DNA from: Circinella umbellata
Taxonomy: Eukaryota; Mucoromycota; Mucoromycetes; Mucorales; Lichtheimiaceae
Length of the DNA stretch: 64,000 nucleotides
Assembly: GCA_025093555.1 (NCBI GenBank)
Contig: JAIWNF010000019.1
Span: forward strand, 558,001-622,000
Direction of reading: 5' to 3'
A program made the position numbers and the translations under genes. This document shows positions 3,001 to 28,216 of this stretch, in pieces (position 1 is the first letter of the stretch; each line of letters starts with the position of its first letter). Under the pieces are notes generated by a model. The model saw nothing but the letters and a program-made list of their open reading frames with translations, ran no database searches and was not told the DNA's origin.

Positions 3001-3232
3001 GATTAAGAGAAACGATCCCAACATGTTGGGACCAAAAAGAGGAAGATGCTTGGAATTGTGTATGAAAACGAGATTGAATGGTTTCATCGCCAGCATGAGA
3101 TTCTTGTAGAGTTAAAATATCAAGAGATTGTGTTCGAAGAAAGCGAATAAATTGTTTACTGCGTTGGGGATCGTCTGTCTTGGGCAAGCCACGACAGTTG
3201 AGGGTGCCAATTCTAATGTTGATATTTTTCAT
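1..3232 (-). CDS. LINE ORF2: endonuclease and reverse transcriptase (partial)
   Basis: The frame starts at ATG 3232-3230 and stays open to the left edge, giving at least 1,077 codons. The N-terminus (MKNINIRIGTLNCRGLP, then LTLQESHAGDE) is the start of an apurinic/apyrimidinic-type endonuclease domain, with the N and E of its metal site. Reverse-transcriptase motifs follow: motif A LDQHKAYDAV near 1450-1480, RQGDPISP near 1260-1290, and the catalytic YADD at 1123-1112 (about residue 704), all in one frame. The start overlaps the ORF1 stop by ATGA, which suggests coupled or reinitiating translation. In the family the protein nicks target DNA and primes cDNA synthesis from element RNA. The C-terminus is outside the window. 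Confidence 0.93.
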   Translation of the reverse strand, partial: MKNINIRIGTLNCRGLPKTDDPQRSKQFIRFLRTQSLDILTLQESHAGDETIQSRFHTQFQASSSFWSQHVGIVSLNPSIILSLNSFELDGRVLHVTASHSSFSFAPINIIVIYAPARSYQRTPFYSSLSQLPFFSSSSIERSVLLGDFNYQILSRSSHGIPDIWKNHLSTSWVDCITPSGDCPSPTFLRNSSRSCIDYIFTSNDLHSFTSSPLIDFINPLWTDHQLVSIELRLGQAPLGPGLWRCNPTLAYDEQFCSSLNQLITDEYPKLPDTLSTQHKWEHIKLITGKFARKYSRKRGTHNKIRLQSLQKERRNYLSTCINTELPHDTYLISLEAEIATIQSDLVYIDALRAGLRWREHGERSASYIKRSIEVRQIKRTITHLRHPTTNTLCNTPDSMTEAAKTFYQHLYSPEPVDHNAIDMILQSVPSDLLSSSNIQSRLTSTFTLEELIAGAKRAPRASSPGSDGLPYPILRLLFEHPLTGALAVDVYNDALHAGVFPGSSSETRLCLLPKKGDLSLLSNWRPISLINTDAKVFTRLVNARLLPVVQPIISPAQTGFLPGKFIGENGLTARLIMEYARHHRLPGVGIILDQHKAYDAVHPTYLRIVLLHIGLPTSLVLSLCNLFFSTSISVMVNGFISDPVQQGRGLRQGDPISPVLFNLAFDPLLRTILADPIFQGFSLQRNLGSIPIVPPAPIKVLGYADDALFFLSDFNDFHQLQNALSLYSRASNAKVNYHKTEAISLSGARQTAWQDFLQSAGINAWHDYRSLSAVRYLGYPLTSTNSQLHAFLEGLLVKLRTASDMHLQRGLSVQGRSTVINTLIMSKIWHVLRVTPVSKQFHQRIRGLVTRFLMYKMFPPVKYDILTLPKFIGGLGILDSRLQQQAMQIRWLSSLFPLSSSAPSFLSCFLSYFLTSNSNCVDPLLPLLFPSLRSSTLRSMHTLSSLFSAIDDLEPGPLNADPSMATCLCLPLSFVIQVQEGSSYVPTKFLSILLVSDAYLFDNNINRLRPRTRTELGVGRNTIIQLFGALNSGEVLISAFLARMLLPGAPILGSADFYIGQVNLQPFYDRFKINNQ

Positions 3233-4644
3233 TGATTATATTTTTTATTTGGTTTGGGTTGGCGAGAACTACGTCGAACACCTGTTTCACTATAAGTGGA
3301 TCCAAGTAATCGTGTAGCGACACCATTTACTGTTTGCAAAATCGACGTAGTAGTAGAATTGTAGTGATTCGGTGCTATAAAATTAGGCAGAATATTATCA
3401 TTTGTCTCAGGAGAAGATGTCTCTCTGGAGTTTAAAGTGTTAGAGTCATTTTCAGTTTCAGTTTCTTGACACGTTATACCTGTGATACCAGAGCTAACTG
3501 GATTAGTCAAGAGAGAGATATCGGGTGCCGTTCCAGCTGAAGAAGAGTGACCTTGATCCTGTTCTTTTTTATTCAAAGATAGAATGGGTGCAATGGCATC
3601 AATATCCATATCTGGTGACTGATATGGTGATGGAGGAGCAGAAGAAAATTCCACTTCACTTTCGGGTTCCTCCTCAGCTGATGTGCTTAAACCATCCAAA
3701 GGGCCATCCTTTTTATTTTTAGTTTGTTGAGGTGAAGGCCCAGATGCAGTTGTGTCACCCTCGTGATGCTGAGTTAGTTGAGGTGGAGTTGATTTTTGTT
3801 GGCAATGTTGCAAGGAGTGACCATAAACACCACAAGATGAACATGCTTGAAGATGTTTTGATTTGACTTTTGGGCAAGCATCTTTTTCGTGAGTATCTTC
3901 GCGGCAGATTCGGCAATAAGGGGGTGATCCTTTCCAAAAAGCTCGAATTTCATGATCCATACTGGGAAATTGAAGGGTGTGTGTGGTCAATTTTTGATCC
4001 GAATTCGTAACATCTAAACATGCACTACCTTGACCCATGAAGAAAGAATGAGGTGACGATAAGTAAAGACTGATATCTAAGAGCCGACCATATGGTTCAA
4101 GGACCTGTTGAATAGCTTGGGATAAGTCGAGTTCTGGCAAATGTGGTAAGTCATAAAGATTAATAGTCATAAGACCTGATCCTTTACGCAGAGCAGGAGT
4201 GCCAAGGATTGTTTGTCCTTGAAGAATCAGTCCGGTGGATGATAAAGTATGACGTTGTTCGTCGTTACGAGGTGTTATTTCGACAACAACTCGTTTATCT
4301 TTAAATCTGAATTCTACTCCTCGAGGAGAAGATGGAGAAAATTGTTGGGCAATAGCATCACAGATGAGGTGTCGATTGTTAGTGATGGCGGTGGTTTCAA
4401 AGAAGAAACTTGGATTTATAGATGAAAAATATTCAGTAGTGCGAATGTGGTTGCCAGGAGCAATATGATGAGTGCCAGAAGACGAGAAAATTGAGCGGCG
4501 CACACTTTTGAGCACTGGTATGGTTGTTTTAGGGCGATTGTCGTTAGTTGACTTGTTCGCATGTAGAGAAGGATTTGTTGTTTTTGTACGAGGACGTTTT
4601 TTTTGACTCATAGGCGAAAGAGGTGGCGCGTTGTAATAGAGCAT
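3229..4644 (-). CDS. LINE ORF1: gag-like RNA-binding protein with zinc knuckles
   Basis: About 471 residues from ATG 4644; a later ATG at 4614 (MSQKKRPRTK) is an alternative start. The frame is open further upstream to 4710 but has no ATG there. The N-terminus is basic. Two CCHC knuckles with spacing C-x2-C-x4-H-x4-C (CRICREDTHEKDAC and CSSCGVYGHSLQHC) lie around 3820-3920. They are followed by a Ser/Pro/Glu-rich tail and a basic C-terminus (RRSSRQPKPNKKYNQ). This is the usual layout of the RNA-binding ORF1 protein that forms the retrotransposition particle. The stop TGA overlaps the ORF2 start. Confidence 0.9.
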   Translation of the reverse strand: MLYYNAPPLSPMSQKKRPRTKTTNPSLHANKSTNDNRPKTTIPVLKSVRRSIFSSSGTHHIAPGNHIRTTEYFSSINPSFFFETTAITNNRHLICDAIAQQFSPSSPRGVEFRFKDKRVVVEITPRNDEQRHTLSSTGLILQGQTILGTPALRKGSGLMTINLYDLPHLPELDLSQAIQQVLEPYGRLLDISLYLSSPHSFFMGQGSACLDVTNSDQKLTTHTLQFPSMDHEIRAFWKGSPPYCRICREDTHEKDACPKVKSKHLQACSSCGVYGHSLQHCQQKSTPPQLTQHHEGDTTASGPSPQQTKNKKDGPLDGLSTSAEEEPESEVEFSSAPPSPYQSPDMDIDAIAPILSLNKKEQDQGHSSSAGTAPDISLLTNPVSSGITGITCQETETENDSNTLNSRETSSPETNDNILPNFIAPNHYNSTTTSILQTVNGVATRLLGSTYSETGVRRSSRQPKPNKKYNQ

Positions 4645-4645
4645 G

Positions 4646-4729
4646 CCCAACGGACTCCCCAAATTTTTTGCTAGATATAAACCCAGAATCAGTGCAATTG
4701 TGCAAATCACCCAACGGACTCCCCAAATT
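4646..4729 (-). repeat. 20-bp direct repeat at the LINE 5' end
   Basis: The 20-mer CCCAACGGACTCCCCAAATT occurs at 4646-4665 and again at 4710-4729, 64 bp apart. The inner copy lies directly upstream of the ORF1 ATG. It may be a partial 5' promoter monomer or a trace of a nested 5' junction. Confidence 0.85.
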
Positions 4730-4742
4730 AAGATTTTTTATT

Positions 4743-6142: not shown

Positions 6143-7565
6143 TCAAAATAATATTAAAAAGATCAAATAGTTTTTGATGAGATGTTTAAGCAGTTCTATA
6201 AAAGTTTGAAATTTAAAGTTTGAAAAAGAAAGAAAAAACAAGTTCATTAACTTTGTCATCCTCGCTACATCCAACATATATAAGTGCTTCCAGAGCGTCC
6301 ACCAGCGAAGCACCGATGCACCAAATGCGTGCTCAATTGCCATTCTCGTTCCCGAGTGAATTTTATTAAACTGAATATGATCCCTTTCTCTAGCATTGAG
6401 AAAAGGAATAACCACAGTAGGCATCATCGGAAACGCAGAATCTAATACAGAAACATCGATAAAATTGATTAATAAAACCCTTTGTGTTTATAATGTTATG
6501 TGTAATCTAAACCGTACCTGCAATAACAACAGTTCTGTCCATACACATACGCTCTGAGATTCGCAGCATTCTTTTATATAGGGCGCTAGATCTGAAACCA
6601 CGAGCATCATTTGTGCGACCTAGACACCATCTCGTTAATTTCAATTCATGCTGTAAACAATTTACCAGTTATATTTTGAACAACGTACCTGAGTTTCCCA
6701 GTTTGATGAATGTGAAGCGTTTTTTATGGTCGCAAACTGCGAGCAGACAAAGAAAAGCATGGTTTTTTCTATCAACGTAAAAATCACTATATCTTGCATG
6801 TTTTTGAATGACCACAAGTTTACCATCCATGGCACCGATGACACTTGGAAGCCGAGGCTTTTCTCGAGTGCTCTTGATTATAAATCCTTCGGCAATTTCT
6901 CGTGTTCGAACAAGATCATCTTTTGGCCAGGTGATATATTTATGACTGACTACTTGCATTGCAGAAATAAATCGATCCGTGAAATTGGTATAGGACCCAT
7001 CACTAATTCCAAGTGTTTCTTGCATTACCCGAAATCCAAACATGGAGTTGGCAAACCGCCAAAGCACAACAGCCACTTGGATTTCTACAGGGTATCCATC
7101 TTTTGCTTGTGAACCAGCATATTCGGGTCTACCCTTCAATTCGTCCACCAACTCCGTAAAAGCCCTAAGAGTGATACGGTAATCGGCTTTAAAACTGTTA
7201 CGAATTCTTGCATCATCACGAAGATTGGGGTAACGAATAGTCCACCAGTAGATACTTTCGAATGCACGTTGTTGTCGTGGTCTTCTTGTTTCGTTAGCCA
7301 TTACAAATGCGGGATTAGCCCAGTATATTTCAAAAAAAAAATCCTCTTGGACGATTCTGGCTCTAAGAGCTGCTTCTGTCATCAGTCTTGTAATACTTTC
7401 AAAGGGGATATAATCCAAGATTTCAGTCTCCCGAACACCAATTGCAAGTAGTAAATCTTGCTCTTCACGTCTCAAAAGCTCCTCCTCATTTTCTTCTTGT
7501 TCCTGCTTCAAGATGTCCACTACAGCTGCTGTTGCTATCTTTACGCTTGCAAAGCCTGATTCCAT
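6143..7565 (-). CDS. PIF/Harbinger-type DDE transposase (HARBI1-like), 3 exons
   Basis: Exons (minus strand): 7565-6689, 6619-6518, 6441-6143, with introns of 69 and 76 nt. The phases close and give 425 residues. The N-terminus has an acidic Glu-rich coil (EQEENEEELLRREEQD). The catalytic core reads VIGAMDGK (first D), then LGNSG joined by splicing to RTNDARGF (second D), then IADSAFP, and IEHAFG (E). These are the conserved blocks of the Harbinger DDE superfamily. The last 30 residues are hydrophobic and unlike the family, so the true end may use another intron. No terminal inverted repeats or companion Myb-like gene were found, so it may be domesticated or an incomplete element. Confidence 0.82.
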
Positions 7566-8598
7566 GTTGACAAAAACAAAATTGAAATCTTGATTATAAC
7601 TGAGATCAAGAAGGGAAAATTTATATTACTGTCTATGCTGTCAGTGTTGTTTCTGTTGCTGTTGGTGTTCATTATTTGATAGTTGTAACTGTCAACAAGT
7701 TTAAGAGTTTAAAGAAGCATTCAACTCAGATTTGTATACGTCATCTTACATACCAAAATAGGTATATCCTAAAAGGGTAACTCGATTTTTTTTGTGAATT
7801 AATTCGCACCTTGTGAGCAACTAATATGTTTAACGTATTATGCTGTTGATTGAACGTTATAGTTACTTTCTCTTTCTAGCCATAAAATATACTCAAATCT
7901 CAAAAAATCGCTAATACGTGTATATATATATATATATATTGTAAATATACAACAAAAATGCAAAAGGTGATTGCGAGCAGTTGAGGAAAAGACCAAAAGA
8001 AAACAAATGTAATCGAAGAAAAGACTACCTTTGTATTAAGATGCATAATTAAGATTGGTTTATGGGGGGATGGTAAGCTTTCTTTTATATTCAAAGCTTA
8101 TTGAACAGTTGCAGAAGATGGATGCACTCGGTCAAAGTGTTATGTATTAATATGTGTTAATATATTGAAAAAGTAATACGTATTTCTTGATCAAAGAGTA
8201 ACAAGGCTTACATAGTGATGTAAAATTATGCGTGGCTGATAAACATCACGTGTAGGTATTGATAGATAGTTTCCCAAAAAAGTAAGAGCTACTATTAGAA
8301 AAAGACATGACGATGAGAGACTTTGTATACAGTGTAAAACGATGTTACATTGTCATTCTTTCTCAAAATAAATTATGTTCTATATTGGAATAAAATGATC
8401 ATGGTTCACTGACAATCACTTAGAATAGTATTTCTCTTTAATTATCAATGATAGTAAAAGTAAAAAAATGTTCAGATATGTTTTCTGATTTTCTGCCCTG
8501 TTTTAATTGGCTATAATGTTTTTCTAATGACAGCAATAGCCTGCTTAAAACAGCAGCTATCTAAATTTTTTTTATTATTTTTTTTGTGTAAAATCAAT
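7566..8598. other. Intergenic, with (TA)n microsatellite
   Basis: Divergent upstream region between the transposase and the SMAP-domain gene. Apart from a (TA)10 tract at 7921-7940 and AT-rich DNA I see no gene. An in-frame ATG at 8527 precedes the chosen start of the next gene but adds only a low-complexity hydrophobic leader. Confidence 0.6.
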
Positions 8599-19435: not shown

Positions 19436-19585
19436 TTTGAAAAAAAGAAAAAGGGTGCAGGAAATTAAGCAGATCAACGGTACAAAAATATAAATGCCGC
19501 AACCCAAATTGTTCCGGCGTAGCTAAAAATCACCAGAAAGTCGAAATTATACATCCGCAATTTTTATAAAACTTCCTCTTTGACC

Positions 19586-21317
19586 ATGGCTGCCATTCCT
19601 TCAAACCCCCAACATTTCTCTAAAGGTTCGTTACTTGACGAACTAGGTTTTATCTCAAAAGAAACTCCCAATTACGACGTACATCCTTTTTGTAAAAGCT
19701 TTAACACTGAAGAAGAATGGCAGTCATGGTTTAAAACAGTTCCTCAAAATCATGCCACATTTATTCGTAATGGTTTTAGCTTAGGCAAAGCAACTAGTAA
19801 TAATAATAATAATAATAATAATAATACCAATGATAATAACAATAACTATAGCAACAATAATAATGATAATAATAATAATAACAATGAAAAGTCAGAAACA
19901 ATTGGGCGTCCTGCTGTATATCAAATGAAGTATCGTTTTATTTTTAACCATGGTGGAAAACCTCGTAAAGCATCAAGTGCTTCTTCTTCGTCGTCATCAT
20001 CATCAATATCTCCTTCCAAAAAACGCAAACGTGATCCATCCAAAATGATTCCTAAAGTTGATTGTCCTGCTAAGATTGATTTGTATAAGTATTCAGATGA
20101 TTCATATGAAGCTGTTTATTATTGGTATCACCATAATCATGATCCTACAAATTCAGAAAGTATTATTGCATCTCGTTTACCTGAAGAAGCTCGCAAATGG
20201 ATTATTGAACATGTTGATAAAAATATGGACTGGGAAGCTATACAGAATGCATTGCGTTTGACGCGTAAAGAAAGAGATTACGTATGTTTTGTAAACTTAA
20301 TATATGATAATAATGATGTAATACTAATTGTTATAAAAAAACAAATGTATAGCTTGATAATAACCCAAACTTGTTGCCTGTGTCAGAACTTATTCATTAT
20401 AAAGACGTCCAAAATCTCATTCAAACAAAACTTGCTCGACTTTCAAAAAAAAGCAGCACTCGATAAAGATACTGTACGTCTTTGGCTTAAGTATCTTGAT
20501 GATGAAGGATATGATGTATTGTCAAACATTGATGAAGATAATAATAGATTTACAATTGCTTGGATATCCAAATGGCAAAAACCAGTAAGTAAAAATGATC
20601 TGTTGTTAATTGATGATTGATTCGATATTGATTATTATGGTATTTCTTTTTAGATTCTTCAAAGGCAGGATATTGTTTGTGTTGATTCGACACATAAAAC
20701 ATGTAAATCATTTATTCGAAGTTCTGATAGTTGCTATTTATTTACCATTGTTTGCAAAAATCTTGATACAAACAAAGGTTGTCCTGTTGGGTTTATGATA
20801 ACAAACTCGGAAACCACAGTCTCTGTTGCTAGTTGGTTTGAATGGTTAAAAAGTGTCATCAACTTTGTCCCTAAGTCTATAATGATCGATTGTAGTCCTG
20901 TTGAAATAAATGCTATAAACCAAGTATAGGGTGATGTTGTTCAGGTTCTTTTGTGTCATTGGCACATTAAAAGAGCATGGGAGAAACATATAAAAAAAAT
21001 GGTAAGTGAATTTGGTTTTATTTTATATATGAAACGTTATTATTTGTTTTGGTACGATGTATTAACTTGTAACTCATTGTTTTAATTTCTATAAGATCAA
21101 AGTCGAAAATTCTACACATGAAACAAAAGAACAACAACGGCAAGCTCGTAATTCTTTGAATCTTTTGATGAATTGTGATAGTATTGATTTGTTTGAGGTT
21201 CTATGGGATTCGTTTAAATCAATGTGGCACGATGTAAATGGTTATGTTGAATTCTATGATTATATGTACCAATATTGGTACCCTAAAAGAGAGAAATGGT
21301 GTAAAGCTTGGAGACCT
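19586..21317 (+). pseudogene. Mutator-like (MULE) transposase gene, frameshifted, stopped and truncated
   Basis: Exons: 19586-20281, 20353-20584, 20654-21001, 21096-21317. The N-terminal part carries a poly-Asn run (19796-19886), a poly-Ser run with KKRKR, and a FAR1/WRKY-GCM1-like region (CPAKIDLYKY, YYWYHHNHDP). SELIHYKDVQNLI is followed by an A8 run at 20445-20452 after which the conserved frame (AALDKDTVRLWLKYLDDEGY) is shifted by one base. The MULE catalytic core follows: VCVDSTHKT, IMIDCSP, CHWHIKRAW. An in-frame TAG at 20927-20929 interrupts it. After 21317 (CKAWRP, donor GTATGT) no further exon is found, so the last part of the core and any SWIM finger are missing. Confidence 0.8.
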
Positions 21318-22155
21318 GTATGTATCATAATTTTTATAACAACATGTACGTATACGTAGAAATACTGTAGAAAAGTATTCGTAATATTTGTTGGTACGTA
21401 GTAACAATAACAATCAAACACTTTTCCTCTACTGTATAATTATTATATTGAATAACAACAAACAAAAAGTAGTATTCAAAGTAACTCTTTGTTTTTCTCA
21501 ATAAATCTTCAGCCAATAATTTTTTTTTTACAATTTTGTTAAGCGGAAATGTTTTTCCGGTAATGGAATTAACCATTATTCTTTGCTTTCATTGTATCAT
21601 ATACTCATAATTAAATCAAAACATTTATACTAAATGGTACAATACGTAATTATTGTACGTACACCATTTATCTTGTTCCCTTTCTTTTTATCGTACACAT
21701 ATTTTCTTGCTTAAAGTAAAAGATATAATCACAAGTATGTCTGGTGCTGTTAATCTGACGACTGGGTGTTTCAGAAATACGGACGTCCGCGGTCTTTAAA
21801 AATGATAAAAGGTTAAAAGTTATATTTATTAAAATGGGAGACTACAATGACCTTCGCCAATGGGCATGTGGTCATTTCCTTGTAGTACAAATGGGTAACA
21901 GCTGTGTAGACGGATCATGTCGTCAACCGCACAAAGTTTAATTTAAAAATCATTTTCTTTATTATTACAATTCTCAGAAACATAATTGATACATCCTGCT
22001 GAAGTGATGATGAGGATCTCATGTATAAATAGAGAGAATATTTTGTTTTAATTGACTACACCTCAATTATATTGGCTACAATTAAATTTTGTTCTTTTGA
22101 GGTCTCATTGGCTTTTTCTCTCTCTTTTCCTATCTTTATTTTTAGTGATAAACGG
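21318..22155. other. Intergenic, nothing recognised
   Basis: AT-rich stretch after the MULE remnant. I looked for the missing transposase C-terminus and terminal inverted repeats and saw neither. Confidence 0.5.
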
Positions 22156-22503
22156 TCATTGATAAAAAATAGTCATTGATAAATGGTCATTGATAAAAAA
22201 TAGTCATTGATAAAATAGTCATTGATAAAAAATAGTCATTGATAAAATGGCCATTGATAAAAAATAGTCATTGATAAATGTTCATTGATAAAAAATAGTC
22301 ATTGATAAAATGGCCATTGATAAAAAATGGTCATTGATAAATGTTCATTGATAAAAAATAGTCATTGATAAAATGGCCATTGATAAAAAATGGTCATTGA
22401 TAAATGTTCATTGATAAAAAATAGTCATTGATAAAATGGTCATTGATAAAAAATAGTCATTGATAAAATGGCCATTGATAAAAAATAGTCATTGATAAAA
22501 TGG
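22156..22503 (+). repeat. 22-copy CATTGATAAA minisatellite
   Basis: The core CATTGATAAA recurs 22 times without a break. Units of about 15 bp (TCATTGATAAAATGG) and 17 bp (TCATTGATAAAAAATAG) alternate, and a higher-order unit of about 63 bp repeats two to three times in the middle. It ends about 150 bp upstream of the Fanzor start codon. Confidence 0.95.
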
Positions 22504-22539
22504 CTGTTCTGAAAATGATCTATTTAGCCAACGGTTAAG

Positions 22540-22547
22540 TATAAAAG
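22540..22547 (+). promoter_or_regulatory. Possible TATA box of the Fanzor gene
   Basis: TATAAAAG lies 108 bp before the ATG at 22655, between the minisatellite and the start codon. A triple TTTTCTTACA repeat (22598-22625) follows, probably in the 5' UTR. Confidence 0.5.
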
Positions 22548-22654
22548 AACGGTTTCTGCAAACCTCATAAAATTATTCATCATCTCTTTTTTTTTTACAT
22601 TTTCTTACATTTTCTTACATTTTCTTTATTGCTACTTGTTCTTATTCTCCAGCC

Positions 22655-25600
22655 ATGGAGCCTATGGATATTGATAGTGCCGACAGCGTAGGTGATGATG
22701 ACATTGAGGATGCCATGTCAATCGATTCCATAAATTCATTTAATTCAAACGGGTCAGGGTTTTCATTTCTAAGTAATCGATCTGATGCTGATATTATTGA
22801 AGACCAAGAAGTGGTATTCCCCGTAACACGGGGCCCAAATCCAAGACCGGAAACATTGGCGGAACGTAAGTATTTGGATAATGTAGTACTTTATGTTATA
22901 CACACACGCATATCAATATAACAATATTAGATGTATTTACTTATTTTTATTATGTGTTTTATCAGGACGAGAACGAGCTAGAGCATATTTGAGAGAAATT
23001 TTCCCCGATAATCACAGAGCAGCAAGAAGACGTAACAGAGTTGTTACACGTAAATGTAAACTCCAAACCATTCTAGAAAATCCTTATTTGGCAGGTGCAA
23101 GGCAGCCACCACCTGGTACGCCGGATATGTTGGTAATTATATATGCATTTTTTTTTGTTGTAGTTAAAACTTCACGTGCAAATATATAATGAAAAGTATT
23201 TACTGAATTGTGGTTTTTTTTATAGAATTTCATACGTCGACTTGCAGAAGAATATACTATTCTTCGACGGGATGCAATGAACCTTGTAACGTTACATGTG
23301 TTACGATCTGTTGAAGATCCTGCCAATGTCACTCGTCCTGTATTAACAGATCAAAACTTTTGGGAAAATGCCTTTCATTTGGTGACGACACCACCTGGTG
23401 AAGCTCTTGCTCGAGTAAGTTTTGTTTATAGAGTTATGTATTGACTGTCCACATGCCTAACATGAATAACTTATTAACCATATACATATATACATATATT
23501 GTTTAGCCAACACCTTACCCTGAACTTGATAATACATTTACAAATCACTTTAATCCTGCTCGTGTACAAAATAATGGTCAAGGTAAGCTTTACGTTTGTT
23601 TTTATGAATTACCAAATAGTGCATGATTATGTACTGTAATAGGCTCTAATTAAATACTATTAGCTTATTACGCAGTACCTGCATGGGATCCTGGTTTACG
23701 TGCCGAAGTTAGAAGAAATTTTGCCAGAAAAGCGATGACAAGTATGTATTGTTGAATTTTATCGTCGTCCCTTGATATTCTATATTTTATTTTGTTACCT
23801 ATACAAGAGTCTAATTTTTGTCATTTATTACCATTTATAATAGATGCCCGTAATCACTTGCTTATGAATATTCCTAACTTTTTGAAAAGAGTATGGTTAT
23901 CTTACATTAATGGATTGGTTACCGAGCTTAATATAAACTTACGACAATCACCTAATACTTTGGGTAACGTATTAAATCATGCTTTGCTATTATAATTTAT
24001 GTTTACTGTTAACATTGCTGAAATTAATAAATAATAACTTCTTATTATCTTTCTTTTTTTTAATCTACAGCAAATAAAATTTACAAGCAACTCGTGGACC
24101 GATCTGATCATCTCCCGAACAATATTATTTCTATGTTTCCCGCTGCCATCCGAAACAGAGTAAATAATTATTATGCGTAAGTGTCACTTTTTTTTTATTA
24201 CAGTACCTGATACTTTTTACTGTATAATACTATTCTATGTATTTAACGAACTTATTTTCTTTTCTTTTGCTTTACATCACGCAGAGAACATCATCAAGCT
24301 TTTCAAACAGCGTTTGCTGATGAAAATGCCCAAAGTATCATTGAAAGGCCAAGTAGCGTGCAACAAGTAAACATTTATCAACGATTGCCTACTTATTTAG
24401 TATATTTACTGAACCAAATAGAAGAAAATGGTGTAAGACGGTGGACTGTACTTCCTGTTGCAAAGCATCAAGTGGCTTACATGCCAATCGATCAACGGTC
24501 ACTATATCATATCTTAAAAATTTATTCAATTCAGTACCCTAACGCCCACATGCCTCCTCATATCATGGTAAGCATTTTCTATTGTATTATTAATATTCAA
24601 TGTATATTTTAAACAGAGTATCTCTAATATAAACGTTGGATACATGCTATTAGTCACCTAACCCACCAAGAGGAAGACGACAACATCGACTAATCACAAT
24701 TGCTGCCTTTCGAGCACTTTCTTCTGTTCAAATGGAACAAATATGGGAGGATATATTTAATTTGAATCACGTTATACCTCGCCGCTGTACATATTGGGAA
24801 ACTGACGGCAAGTATTCTTTATTTGAAATAAGATCTTTTTCAATGATTTTCTTCAAGGCGTAGCAAAAACTGATGAATAGCACGAGTGTCCTTTTAATTT
24901 ATAGAAGCCGGTATGTTTCCATCTCAACATCGTGAACGGTATTTGTTCAACAATTATATTGAAACTGATGGTGTTGGGGTGTCACTGACGTTCAGAAGAC
25001 CAATCGCAACTATCCGTGGTGGTAAATATACTGCTTATTACAACTTTATTTTGATGTTGTACCAAAATGTTTATATCCCATTATTTTTTTTTTAACTTTA
25101 ATCGTATATGATTTTAGAGCGATTGCCACAGTCCTCTAGAGAAGTTGTACGATATCCTCGTAATCAAGACTTGACAGCATGGCGACGTGGGATGTATCAT
25201 CTCTCTAAAAATCCTCAGGGATTAACTCAACAACGCGCCGCTGATTCTCGCTTAGTATATATTGATCCAGGTACAGTAATAAACGTACTTATTGTTACAT
25301 TGCTATAACTGTGCTTTACCAAAGAGCAAATGTGTACTTACTGTTATTTAAAAAATTATCTATATTAATAAAACAAATAGGCATTCGTTCTTTGGTCACT
25401 GCTGTGGATACACTGGATGCGCTGGAAACAGATCAACAACGTGAACAGCACACAATAAAATTACATAACGGACAATATCAGTATGTTTTTTTTTCTTTTA
25501 ATATGTAGTAAATTAACTAAGATAATAATTTATTATAATTGGCATACATTAATTATATTATAACTATTTACCTAAATAATAGAGTCCAATCTTTGTTCAA

Positions 25601-27104
25601 GTGGTCTCAATACAGAGAGCTTGAAAACCGACGTCAATACGTCGCTGAAGAAGCATTACGTGGTCGAGAAGCTACCGACTTACATCTGCTTATCATATGA
25701 TGGGATTTGTTCCAGCAACAGTGACACAACTGGAAATTTCATTCAATACATTCGTATGATAGGTGAATTTCATACAGAGTGAGTAGTTTTTTTTTTCTTT
25801 TTTTAAAAAAAAAGTCTATATTGCACGCAACACTTCATAATAGCTAACATTCTTTACTATAGAATATATGAAAACTTTAATTTTCATTACCGCCATCGTG
25901 AAATGCGTATGCGATATTTTGGAGCACATCGTAGTGCCTTGGAAATGTTAGCCAACTTGCTAACTGGTGTGGATGAACAAAACGATGTATGTATATCCAC
26001 TTGTATTATTAAATTCATTGATATGAAATTGCTAATTTTTTTTGTGTTATTTACAGCCACAACTTCCGCCTCAACTCCCTACCTTTTTCAGACATTCAAA
26101 AAAAGAACGTAAAAATCATCGACGAGCAGTTCGTCGAGAACGACGACGACAACCTGGATATGTGCCACCCTTGCCAACCATTGTTGCTTATGGTGACGGT
26201 AGGCTTAGACCAAGTATGAGGGGTTATGAACCTACTCCAGTGGAAGTATGTGACCATTTATATACATTAAAGCATCATATCATACAAATTCAGGATTTTA
26301 ATCATTTTTCAACCTCTTTTTCTTTATTATTATATAGACATTTCGTGCAGTGTTGGCACGTCGGACTTTAGTTATATTAACTAACGAGTCTTACACAAGT
26401 ATAATGTGTTCTGTATGTCATAATCGTACAGTATCTTTAGTTCATCAAAGTCGGGGTGATCCAGATAGAGATATGTGGATATGTACAAATCATCGGTAAG
26501 ATAAATCATATTAATTGTTTTTCTTTTTATTCAAGTGAGAAACTAACTCTATTTCTTCTTAAAATATAGAAAACAAAAAATAAGAAGAACTACTGGAAAT
26601 AACAGAAAGGGAAGAAAGATACTTTGGTGCTGTGATGAAGAAAATAATCCATTAACACGTACATCACAATGTCCTGATCGCGTGCGTGCTGGTTTGTATC
26701 GTTTCCAACTTGATGATTTTTGAAAAGAAAAAATATCACGCTACTATTGAATATTTTAAAAACTAAATGATCATACTTTCTCTTCTCTTTTTAAAATAAT
26801 ACGTAATAATAATATTGTATATATAGCTGGTTATAGGCGTAATGTATATCCATATCGATGGTGTCGACATTGTGAACGAGGAATTGACGAGAATGGTGAA
26901 AATGTATTAGGTCGTGTAATAGATAGGGATCTTAACGCTGCAAATAATATTGGACGAGTATTTACAGCTTATATCAATAGCAATGGTGATCCTAACTCAA
27001 GACCATTATACCTTCGACGTCCTGATAATCAAAACCAACATATTAATGCACAAATGCAAGAAGAAGAACTTGTTCGAGAAGAAATTGCGAGTGAAGAAGA
27101 ATAA
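22655..27104 (+). CDS. Fz: Fanzor (TnpB-related RNA-guided nuclease), 18 exons
   Basis: Exons: 22655-22865, 22966-23132, 23226-23414, 23507-23582, 23664-23741, 23844-23963, 24071-24176, 24285-24567, 24654-24807, 24905-25021, 25118-25270, 25381-25480, 25583-25778, 25863-25986, 26057-26245, 26338-26495, 26570-26691, 26827-27104. About 940 residues. The N-terminus is acidic, followed by an Arg-rich helix. LLNQIEENGVRRWTVLPVAK and ETDGVGVSLTF match the Fanzor wedge/REC-side region. RuvC-I is IDPGIRSLVTAVD (D about 550). IVAYGDG lies where RuvC-II is expected. NESYTSIMCSVC and WCRHC form the zinc ribbon. RuvC-III is DRDLNAANNI (D about 882). Intron 9 is GC-AG. All phases close except in exon 13, where the frame slips near 25680-25700. 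The family cuts DNA guided by a short RNA encoded at the gene's 3' side. Confidence 0.9.
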
Positions 27105-27473
27105 TAGCTATAAAAGAAAACTAAAACTGCCAGTAAAGATGTGCTGGCATTCATGTATTAAATAACTGGGGTGAAGTAAGTACTTGTTTCTTTTGTTTCT
27201 GGTTAACATGAAAAAAAATTATGCTGTGCGCTGACTTCAGTTTTTTTTTATGTGAATTATATTTTTTTTATGACGTAATTTTTTCTGATAAATAAAGAAC
27301 TCCACACACTCTCGTTTTATATAAAAAATATAAACCCAGTTATTTTTTTTTTCATTGACTCTCCGCAAAATAGTTTGGATTATGCAGACCAAGTTTTAGT
27401 TAAAGTAACCTTTTTGAGTTACTTTTCTCCCTTTCTGCTCTCTCTCTCTCTCTCCCTTTTTTTATTTTATATA
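27105..27473. other. 3' flank of Fanzor and promoter of ATG4
   Basis: 369 bp. It holds the hairpin listed next and the sequence ATAAATAAAGAAC near 27289, a possible polyadenylation signal. A (CT)n tract at about 27439-27453 lies just before the ATG4 start. No coding frame. Confidence 0.5.
27128..27149 (+). other. Hairpin just after the Fanzor stop codon
   Basis: TGCCAG, a 10-nt loop, then CTGGCA: a perfect 6-bp stem 24 nt after the TAA. Guide RNAs of TnpB and Fanzor are encoded at or beyond the 3' end of the gene, so this could be a scaffold hairpin, but a stem this short also occurs by chance. Confidence 0.3.
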
Positions 27474-28216
27474 ATGAGTCAGTTTACTACGGGTGTATCT
27501 AATAGATTAACAAAGAATAACTCACCATGTCCATCAGATAATAATAATAATAACGAACAAAAAAAGAATGACAATGACCATTTACCACAACCACAAAACT
27601 CCAACCATTTGAGCACTGCGCCATTAAAAGATAAATTGTTAACCAATTCTTCTTATTTAGCAGCTGAAATACCACTCAAGTTAGGTCATTGGGTATCTCA
27701 TTTATGGCACCAACATTATTCAACAGAAGAAAATCAAGATTCTACTTTGTACCTTTTAGGACAATGTTACGACATGCCTAATATGGTACAAATTCAAAAA
27801 GATATTTTTAATGCACAATCAGAAACTTTTTTCAATCACGACAATGACGATAATGGTTATGATAATAATAAAGAAAATAAACAACGACAACGACAGCACC
27901 AAGAAGAAGAAAATAGAAACAGTAGTAGTAGTAGGAGTAGTAGTGGGAGTAGTAATAATCAAGGAAGTGAAAGAATACAAGAACAAGTAACAACCCCTTC
28001 ATTATCTATGATGTGGCCACCAGCATTTTATGATGATTTTATTACACGAATTTGGATGACATACAGGCATAATTATCCACCTATTCGTCCTTCAAATTAT
28101 AAAACAGATATTGGATGGGGTTGTATGCTTCGTAGTGGTCAAAGTTTACTTGCCAACGCATTATTAATACATTACTTGGGAAGAGGTTTGTAATCTTTTT
28201 AAAATAATATAATATA

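Follow-up and report, generated by a model that had tools for sequence, protein, structure and literature searches.

A frame-broken Fanzor1 gene in a multicopy, MULE-flanked and likely recently active transposon family of Circinella umbellata

The Fanzor gene at positions 22655–27104 (+ strand) of the window, as we call the whole 64,000-nucleotide stretch of Circinella umbellata DNA analysed here, probably belongs to a multicopy transposon, flanked by MULE sequence and likely active in recent times, of which this is a frame-broken copy and whose intact sisters would use their Fanzor1, a predicted nuclease, to cut the empty site with a guide taken from the right flank. The element (7.8 kb; Table 1) is composed of a truncated MULE transposase gene followed by the Fanzor gene, and its ends were set by alignment with copies on contigs C136 (two), C5, C174 and C197. 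A Mucoromycota-like host, originally read from the letters alone, agrees with the nearest proteins, which come from Circinella and Lichtheimia and back a placement in Mucorales.

Table 1 Features of the window copy of the element.
Feature	Position	Strand	Remarks
Whole mobile element, window copy	19515..27304	+	7790 bp; left end CGGCGTAGCTAAAAATC..., right end ...AATAAAGAACTCC(A)
Left flank, window copy: CCCA plus eight bases, common target motif	19503..19514	+	
MULE-type transposase gene, 3′-truncated, several exons	19586..21325	+	in-frame stop 20927–20929
Tandem repeat, 32-bp unit, about 11 copies, upstream of Fanzor gene	22146..22504	+	TRF
Fanzor exon 1 (start ATG)	22655..22865	+	
Fanzor exon 2	22966..23132	+	
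Fanzor exon 3	23226..23414	+	
Fanzor exon 4	23507..23582	+	
Fanzor exon 5	23664..23741	+	
Fanzor exon 6	23844..23963	+	
Fanzor exon 7	24071..24176	+	
Fanzor exon 8	24285..24567	+	
Fanzor exon 9, then GC-AG intron	24654..24807	+	
Fanzor exon 10, TDG motif (ETDGVGVSLTF)	24905..25021	+	
Fanzor exon 11, end within RuvC-I motif (IDP)	25118..25270	+	
Fanzor exon 12, start within RuvC-I motif (GIRS)	25381..25480	+	
Fanzor exon 13, two frame breaks, window copy only	25583..25778	+	
Fanzor exon 14, HYRHRE block	25863..25986	+	
Fanzor exon 15, AYGDG...PVE block	26057..26245	+	
Fanzor exon 16, catalytic glutamate in displaced position (NESYTS), first zinc-finger CxxC	26338..26495	+	
Fanzor exon 17, zinc-finger insert, further cysteines	26570..26691	+	
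Fanzor exon 18, second CxxC, RuvC-III DRDLNAANNI, stop	26827..27104	+	
Candidate scaffold of guide RNA (omega/right-end RNA), between end of gene and end of element	27105..27304	+	putative function
Seven-pair hairpin in candidate scaffold	27129..27148	+	
AATAAA, poly(A) signal motif, 8 nt from element end	27291..27296	+	
Right-hand target-site duplication, 9 bp; would be guide start	27304..27312	+	equals left flank of C37 element, not own left flank

The gene runs from an ATG at 22655 to a TAA stop at 27102–27104, and splice dinucleotides are present at all 17 introns, of which 16 are GT–AG and one (intron 9) is GC–AG. Every motif named in the original prediction is in place: ETDGVGVSLTF in exon 10, IDPGIRS across exons 11 and 12, CSVC in exon 16, and CRHC and DRDLNAANNI in exon 18. 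Its eighteen exons in phase hold up as eighteen exons with splice dinucleotides, of which 1–12 and 14–18 fit together; the frame is broken in exon 13, whose entry frame differs from the required exit frame. Responsible are two one-base losses, which all eight further copies aligned at this exon (C5, C136a, C136b, C174, C197, C195, C15 and C189) lack, in DNA otherwise about 99% identical. Five sisters (C5, C136a, C136b, C174 and C197) have an uninterrupted frame of 940 amino acids over the same predicted 18 exons, differing at 0–6 of 940 residues; all 17 splice-site pairs are conserved across them, and 12 of the 17 junctions recur, to within 2 of 12 residues, in gene models of two further Circinella genomes. 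As assembled, the window copy would not yield the full-length protein of its sisters.

Less probable, while keeping an appreciable chance, is a functional window copy, either because the exon 13 losses arose as errors of sequencing or assembly or because an additional intron within exon 13 yields a slightly shorter protein. The two losses lie close together in this nearly identical DNA, and the flanks of the window copy have no target-site duplication (TSD) in common while the left flank of C37 fits, and a switch between copies in the assembly may account for this. An exhaustive check of 75 GT/GC–AG pairs within exon 13 found 23 that produce an open frame, of 896–931 amino acids; such an intron would, however, remove residues that the sisters keep, and by eye the donors of the 23 solutions look weaker than the gene's other donors. 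Because the eight other copies are free of the losses and five of them need no extra intron, damage to the frame is preferred.

Exon-level matches number 134 at E up to 1, across 14 contigs; the copies have common ends and differing flanks, one (C15) being decayed and another (C195) running past the end of its contig. The 17 introns had been taken as a sign of long residence in the nuclear genome; long residence at this locus is not supported by them, since the introns are common to near-identical copies elsewhere in a multicopy mobile family and therefore travelled with the element as DNA. Introners, introns copied from each other, were considered and rejected, as 19 of 100 shuffled sets scored at least as well as the best of 136 intron pairs. 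The window was also scanned against Rfam and for tRNA genes, with no match in either case. Domestication of the Fanzor into a single-copy host gene at this locus, to which its many introns and an ATG4-like reading frame (by eye) beginning 170 bp downstream would lend themselves, is extremely improbable: the family is multicopy and near-identical with differing flanks, its sisters have TSDs, and the copy at the locus is frame-broken.

Sequence evidence supports assignment of the family to Fanzor1, in line with the original prediction, and the intact sisters encode a predicted RNA-guided DNA nuclease. In sister C5 the RuvC-I motif is D550-PG, and DPG was found in nine of the 11 proteins scanned; P0001 and P0010, which lack it, are both seemingly incomplete gene models. 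Separated by six residues from C779 is E772, the displaced catalytic glutamate, whose placement six residues before the first CxxC is a Fanzor1 rule in the available part of PMC10711439; the pattern E..TS..C..C occurs in seven of the 11 proteins, and the four without it are short models of 422–525 amino acids. TDG, which the same portion of PMC10711439 gives as a Fanzor1 rule for the WED region, lies at 482 in C5 and is present in eight of the 11 (absent from P0007, P0008 and P0010). The spacing D-X(125-275)-[TS][TS]-X-X-C4 finger-X(5-50)-RD is also found, with X = 224 and 17 residues from the last finger cysteine to RD, and the zinc finger itself is extended and contains cysteines additional to the four. 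The family thereby matches the Fanzor1 signatures set out in the accessible text of PMC10711439 and PMC3627910.

A C-terminal profile of the family (A4) matches two solved Fanzor1 proteins, Parasitella PpFz1 (E 4.9e-8) and Guillardia GtFz1 (E 2.9e-4); searches of the PDB with full-length queries, by phmmer with a single sequence and with a profile, found no Fanzor. Relatives from Lichtheimia ornata (O0I10_007669 and O0I10_008160), Fennellomyces, Cunninghamella and Rhizopus are 25–33% identical, and DPG and E..TS..CxxC are present in all five. At an E threshold of 0.1, five of the nine A1 members match the zinc-ribbon family PF07282 (best E 1.4e-9). PF07282 is common to TnpB and would also suit a Fanzor2 or contamination with a bacterial TnpB, but seventeen spliceosomal-type introns, the TDG motif, the displaced glutamate and best solved relatives that are Fanzor1 make either identity scarcely credible. 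An AlphaFold2 model of the Lichtheimia relative P0003, built with ten sequences, was poor (mean pLDDT 46.2, pTM 0.33), and the predicted RuvC fold therefore rests on sequence. The genome also holds other Fanzor-like families.

Forming the left part of the element is the MULE-type gene, for which joined pieces from C5 and C37 match PF10551 with 28.6 bits (cut-off 27.6). Homology with Fanzor-less relatives ends at about 21325, and the copies on C37 and C57 run on into further MULE exons. The gene is truncated in the Fanzor-bearing copies aligned, with a stop in the window copy and in C5, and no complete transposase was found in the element. In this genome, the Fanzor part was seen behind a single kind of 5′ part, and the MULE part with varied 3′ parts.

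MULE TSDs range from 8 to 11 bp. Among six copies read at both ends, three (C136b, C174 and C197) have their own TSD, of 8–9 bp, and it is missing in the other three, including the window copy, whose right flank pairs with the left flank of C37. No terminal inverted repeats (TIRs) were found above chance, the best local score being reached by 226 of 2,000 shuffles and by 150 of 2,000 window stretches; typical MULEs differ in having inverted repeats at their ends. AATAAA was found in 12 of 13 right ends read. The family is likely to be a recently active transposon.

Preceding seven of the 12 exact left-end matches is CCCA plus 7–8 bases; the remaining five (C136a, C11, C113, C57a and C57b) are without it. 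Among recent left flanks it is present in seven of eight: six share a single offset, and in C174 the motif lies a base closer. At the frequency of CCCA within the window, 0.002 per position, the chance of finding it at one offset is about 2e-15 for six of eight flanks and about 7e-14 for six of twelve, for a motif chosen after looking at the flanks. The preference for CCCA may be that of the transposase alone.

Between recent copies, exons overall are no more conserved than introns: C5 and C197 differ at 14 of 2,823 exon sites and at 6 of 1,630 intron sites, with 5, 1 and 8 changes of 941 at codon positions 1, 2 and 3. Second positions change least in the four sister pairs compared, in small numbers, a pattern not seen when comparing with the broken window copy; in the comparison with the decayed C15, not used as evidence of selection, first positions change most. 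The candidate scaffold at the right end has a single-sequence fold z of −2.6 and showed covariation in none of 50 pairs, and across five partial copies the right end is conserved no better than introns 16 and 17, with no selection seen on the 3′ region. The protein could on these grounds be Fanzor1 by descent and now only a passenger, with a MULE-type transposase moving the element and the nuclease irrelevant to its persistence; the MULE-length TSDs, the MULE gene within the element, the exons' lack of extra conservation and the absence of detectable constraint on the right-end RNA would all suit this. We nevertheless regard it as distinctly unlikely, given five open frames of 940 amino acids with all catalytic residues kept and the second-position pattern, within the limits just stated.

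For a transposon whose nuclease acts on the empty site, the reading preferred here, we propose that transcription passes through the element's right end and that the poly(A) signal would place the 3′ end of the RNA in flanking DNA, the 200-nt right-end segment serving as scaffold and the flank as guide. Bound to the right-end RNA, Fanzor would cut the empty site once the element has left, recognising it by its match to the flank beside a CCCA-like motif, and repair from a filled copy would retain or multiply the element. Owing to the truncation of the transposase gene in the aligned Fanzor-bearing copies and its stop in the window copy and C5, movement would depend on a MULE-type transposase supplied in trans. 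The right end of the window copy could remain a source of guides.

An extension of this scheme, offered tentatively as something that may well not hold, is that the insertion motif is also the recognition motif of the nuclease. With entry at CCC^A, the empty site would carry CCCA plus the exact guide sequence of the filled copy's right-end RNA, and the element's own right junction, TCCA, would escape cutting. As the poly(A) signal lies 8 nt inside the edge and the RNA would end in the flank, the gene's own polyadenylation would write a new guide with each insertion, and broken copies could guide intact sisters.

Fanzor1 inside MuDR-like elements of Mucorales is already known (PMC3627910, available part), and the window family adds to this kind. 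The MuDR-type elements with Mucoromycota Fanzor1 described there have 9-bp TSDs, and are like the window family in combining Fanzor1 with MULE-length TSDs; as far as that text goes, they have MuDR-like TIRs and no transposase gene, whereas the window family has a truncated MULE gene and no TIR was found. MCi-2 of Mucor circinelloides, from the same text, is likened to the window family by element layout, not by protein comparison: its nearly identical Fanzor-bearing 3′ part stands on other 5′ parts, it is described without TIRs, and both carry part of a foreign transposase, a Crypton in MCi-2 and a MULE here. The start of the TSD is fixed in both, as ATAATT plus 4–5 bases in MCi-2 and as A plus 8 in the window family (CCA plus 8 on an 11-bp reading); motif and transposase type differ.

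Parasitella parasitica Fanzor1 (PDB 9cf0), also from Mucorales, is matched by the family profile over the TDG, DPG and DEFRTS-CxxC blocks and cuts DNA in vitro according to the available text of PMC11423790; its recognition motif there is ATN and that predicted for the window family is CCCA, the two proteins being similar through the profile only. Chlamydomonas CRe-2 and CRe-3 are likewise mobile Fanzor1 with many exons (ten, EST-supported), but have Helitron-like ends in the accessible part of PMC3627910, where a 3′ excess is reported for CRe-1; in the window family the predicted exons number 18 and the left part is of MULE type.

The family suggests that mobility as DNA is compatible with a nuclease gene interrupted by 17 predicted introns. 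Two points are new and testable: CCCA may be what the nuclease recognises, and transcripts would be able to take up flank sequence as guide by virtue of the poly(A) signal lying at the border of the element. The family offers five or more uninterrupted, near-identical copies with sharp ends, readable TSDs and a common insertion motif, in which the idea that insertion motif and recognition motif are one is directly testable.

Splice-site inspection places the Fanzor gene on 18 exons, with exons 1-12 and exons 14-18 forming in-phase blocks and a frame shift within exon 13. Intron 9 has GC-AG borders and the other sixteen introns have GT-AG; lengths range from 70 to 135 nucleotides (mean 96). The motifs and gene named in the original prediction are present at the coordinates predicted; its eighteen exons in phase fail for the window copy under the 18-exon model, in which the entry frame of exon 13 differs from its exit frame. 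An extra intron inside exon 13 could reopen the frame: with a minimum intron length of 20 nt, 23 of the 75 GT/GC-AG pairs there do so and give proteins of 896-931 aa. Twelve of the 17 junctions are matched within 2 of 12 residues by deposited Circinella gene models (8 by Circinella umbellata, 9 by C. minor), which are predictions by others and not transcripts.

The genome, in which the window is C101:558001-622000, spans 50.8 Mb and 210 contigs; a protein search of it, taken to E 1, gave 134 exon-level matches spread over 14 contigs, and many showed 93-99% identity. Aligned to the window gene, the coding sequences on contigs C5, C136 (two copies, a and b), C174 and C197 run uninterrupted for 2823 nt (940 codons and a stop), keep all 17 intron boundaries and differ among themselves at 0 to 6 of 940 residues; the C15 copy is decayed and the C195 copy lies at a contig end. 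Two one-base losses in exon 13 are private to the window copy, being absent from all eight other copies aligned there (these five sisters, C195, C15 and C189). The family thus has intact members; the window copy is a damaged one, barring sequencing errors or splicing that skips the losses. Second codon positions are the least changed in the four sister pairs compared, and exons overall are not more conserved than introns among the recent copies compared. The C197 element carries a foreign insertion of about 6 kb, and its Fanzor is intact.

A C-terminal profile, built from seven sequences (one of them a distant Fanzor-like gene of the same genome), retrieved the solved Fanzor1 proteins of Parasitella parasitica (E 4.9e-8) and Guillardia theta (E 2.9e-4) as the top two of five PDB matches up to E 10. 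The second half of the X-joined window sequence scored 22 bits against PF07282, under the cut-off of 26.3. The Lichtheimia relative P0003 exceeded that cut-off at 38.4 bits. The full-length profile retrieved neither Fanzor1 from the PDB, and the X-joined window sequence found no Fanzor chain there, giving only two unrelated matches (E 0.8 and 1.1). Sister C5 has a TDG motif at 482, DPG at 550-552, and E772 followed by six residues and then CxxC; its D-to-TS spacing is 224 residues, and 17 residues separate the last finger cysteine from RD (882-883). These hallmarks agree with the Fanzor1 signatures in PMC10711439 and PMC3627910 and, with the C-terminal profile matches, argue that the protein is Fanzor1-like, as first proposed. 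Additional cysteines lie between the two CxxC pairs of the zinc finger. Protein searches, each scoring only the roughly 8000 candidates with most shared words, gave 3, 6 (including the query) and 5 (including P0003) matches, all in Mucorales (Circinella, Lichtheimia, Fennellomyces, Cunninghamella and Rhizopus). These relatives make Circinella, or a genus near it, the likely source of the window.

Copies match the window across the whole element and diverge outside it (see table). Its left part holds a MULE-type transposase gene, interrupted by a stop shared by the window copy, C37 and C5; joined pieces of C5 and C37 score 28.6 bits against PF10551 (cut-off 27.6). The related left parts on C37 and C57 have the element's initial 1866 bp in common (gapped in C57) before running on into further MULE exons, with no Fanzor match in the genome protein search at E up to 1, where C37 ends 3.2 kb past the left end and C57 was read about 6 kb either side of its pair of copies. 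The Fanzor element is thus a chimera, MULE on the left and Fanzor on the right; the MULE end seems to have been shuffled onto different right-hand modules. Between left and right ends, inverted repeat did not rise above chance. Immediately ahead of the Fanzor gene lies a tandem repeat with a 32-bp unit; its length seems to vary among sisters in alignments, and it may serve as a promoter or as an array of binding sites. The element sits upstream of an ATG4-like frame, in a region rich in mobile DNA, given a Harbinger-like fragment and a LINE ORF1-like protein.

Features of the window and of related loci elsewhere in the genome
Feature	Location	Strand	Remark
LINE ORF1-like zinc-knuckle protein	3229-4737	-	by eye
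Harbinger-like transposase fragment	6669-7625	-	by eye
Fanzor-bearing element	19515-27304
MULE-type transposase gene	begins 19586
Stop in MULE gene	20927-20929
Foreign insertion in C197 (L036, L037)	between window-equivalent 21823 and 21835
32-bp tandem repeat	22146-22504
Fanzor gene	22655-27104	+
ATG4-like reading frame	27474-28193	+	by eye; begins 170 bp past element right end
C57 pair (L045, L046)	C57:697887 and C57:720463		inverted segmental duplication, 99% over ~5 kb; fuller MULE gene; SWIM-like zinc-finger stretch (by eye)
C37 junction of MULE left part and Myb-like reading frame (L044)	C37, from about 2645		Myb-like reading frame (by eye) comes after the further MULE exons
L001	C200:171142-171306		second, distinct TnpB/Fanzor-like family; C200 gene nearest in PDB to TnpB-like protein L79 (E 4e-21)
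L002	C156:668025-668177		same second family; resembles decayed relative (by eye)
L003	C134:1002832-1003050		third Fanzor-like gene, its exons long; distant relative of window family (P0003 matched by BLASTP at E 3e-7)

Six copies were read at both ends. Three (C136b, C174 and C197) have their own target-site duplication (TSD) of 8-9 bp; the window copy, C5 and C136a have none. Nine bp of the window copy's right flank match the flank to the left of the C37 element, for which the best explanation is that copies exchanged sequence or that the assembly switched between them. Exact matches to the left-end pattern number 12, with five more at one or two mismatches. Seven of the 12 exact left flanks contain CCCA: 8 bases separate it from the element end in six (window, C5, C37, C46, C136b and C197) and 7 do so in C174; it is absent from C136a, C11, C113, C57a and C57b. 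Leaving out C11 and C113 (degenerate) and the older C57 pair, the count is 7 of 8. CCCA has a per-position frequency of 0.002 across the window; on that basis, the chance of CCCA at a single offset is ~2e-15 for six of 8 and ~7e-14 for six of 12, for a motif picked after inspecting the flanks. The right-end segment gave 20 matches at 19 places, as against 12 exact left-end matches, several copies being the 3' part only. Among the 13 of 19 read, ten end in TCCA, one in CCCA and one in TCCG, and one is truncated; AATAAA lies near the element end in 12 of 13.

This kind of system is already known: in 2013 PMC3627910 described MuDR-like elements in Rhizopus, Phycomyces and Mucor that carry Fanzor1 and have 9-bp TSDs. 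It also described the MCi-2 family of Mucor, whose 5' parts vary, which lacks terminal inverted repeats and whose TSDs are led by a motif. The same account gives CRe-2 and CRe-3 ten exons and reports a 3' excess for CRe-1, like the 3'-only copies here. The present family, its exon count and the CCCA motif were not found in the open-licence papers searched.

The 200-nt right end folds more stably than its shuffles (z -2.6) and shows no covariation; five partial copies match it at an identity of 0.93 to 0.97, similar to that of introns 16 and 17 (0.89 to 1.00). RNA 3' ends usually lie 10-30 nt past AATAAA, and by this rule the AATAAA at the edge would put RNA 3' ends in the flank. In published Fanzors, according to PMC10432273 and PMC10711439, the guide is the RNA 3' end and comes from element-flanking DNA; the latter adds that the TSD joins the scaffold in some Fanzor1 elements, as a fixed flanking base does in IS607. 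Because a TSD or flanking base becomes scaffold there, we infer that the scaffold here would finish with the right end's constant CCA, and that the guide would start at the variable bases. In an empty site, CCCA would precede the variable bases matching the guide; in a filled copy the right junction reads TCCA, which may spare it from cutting.
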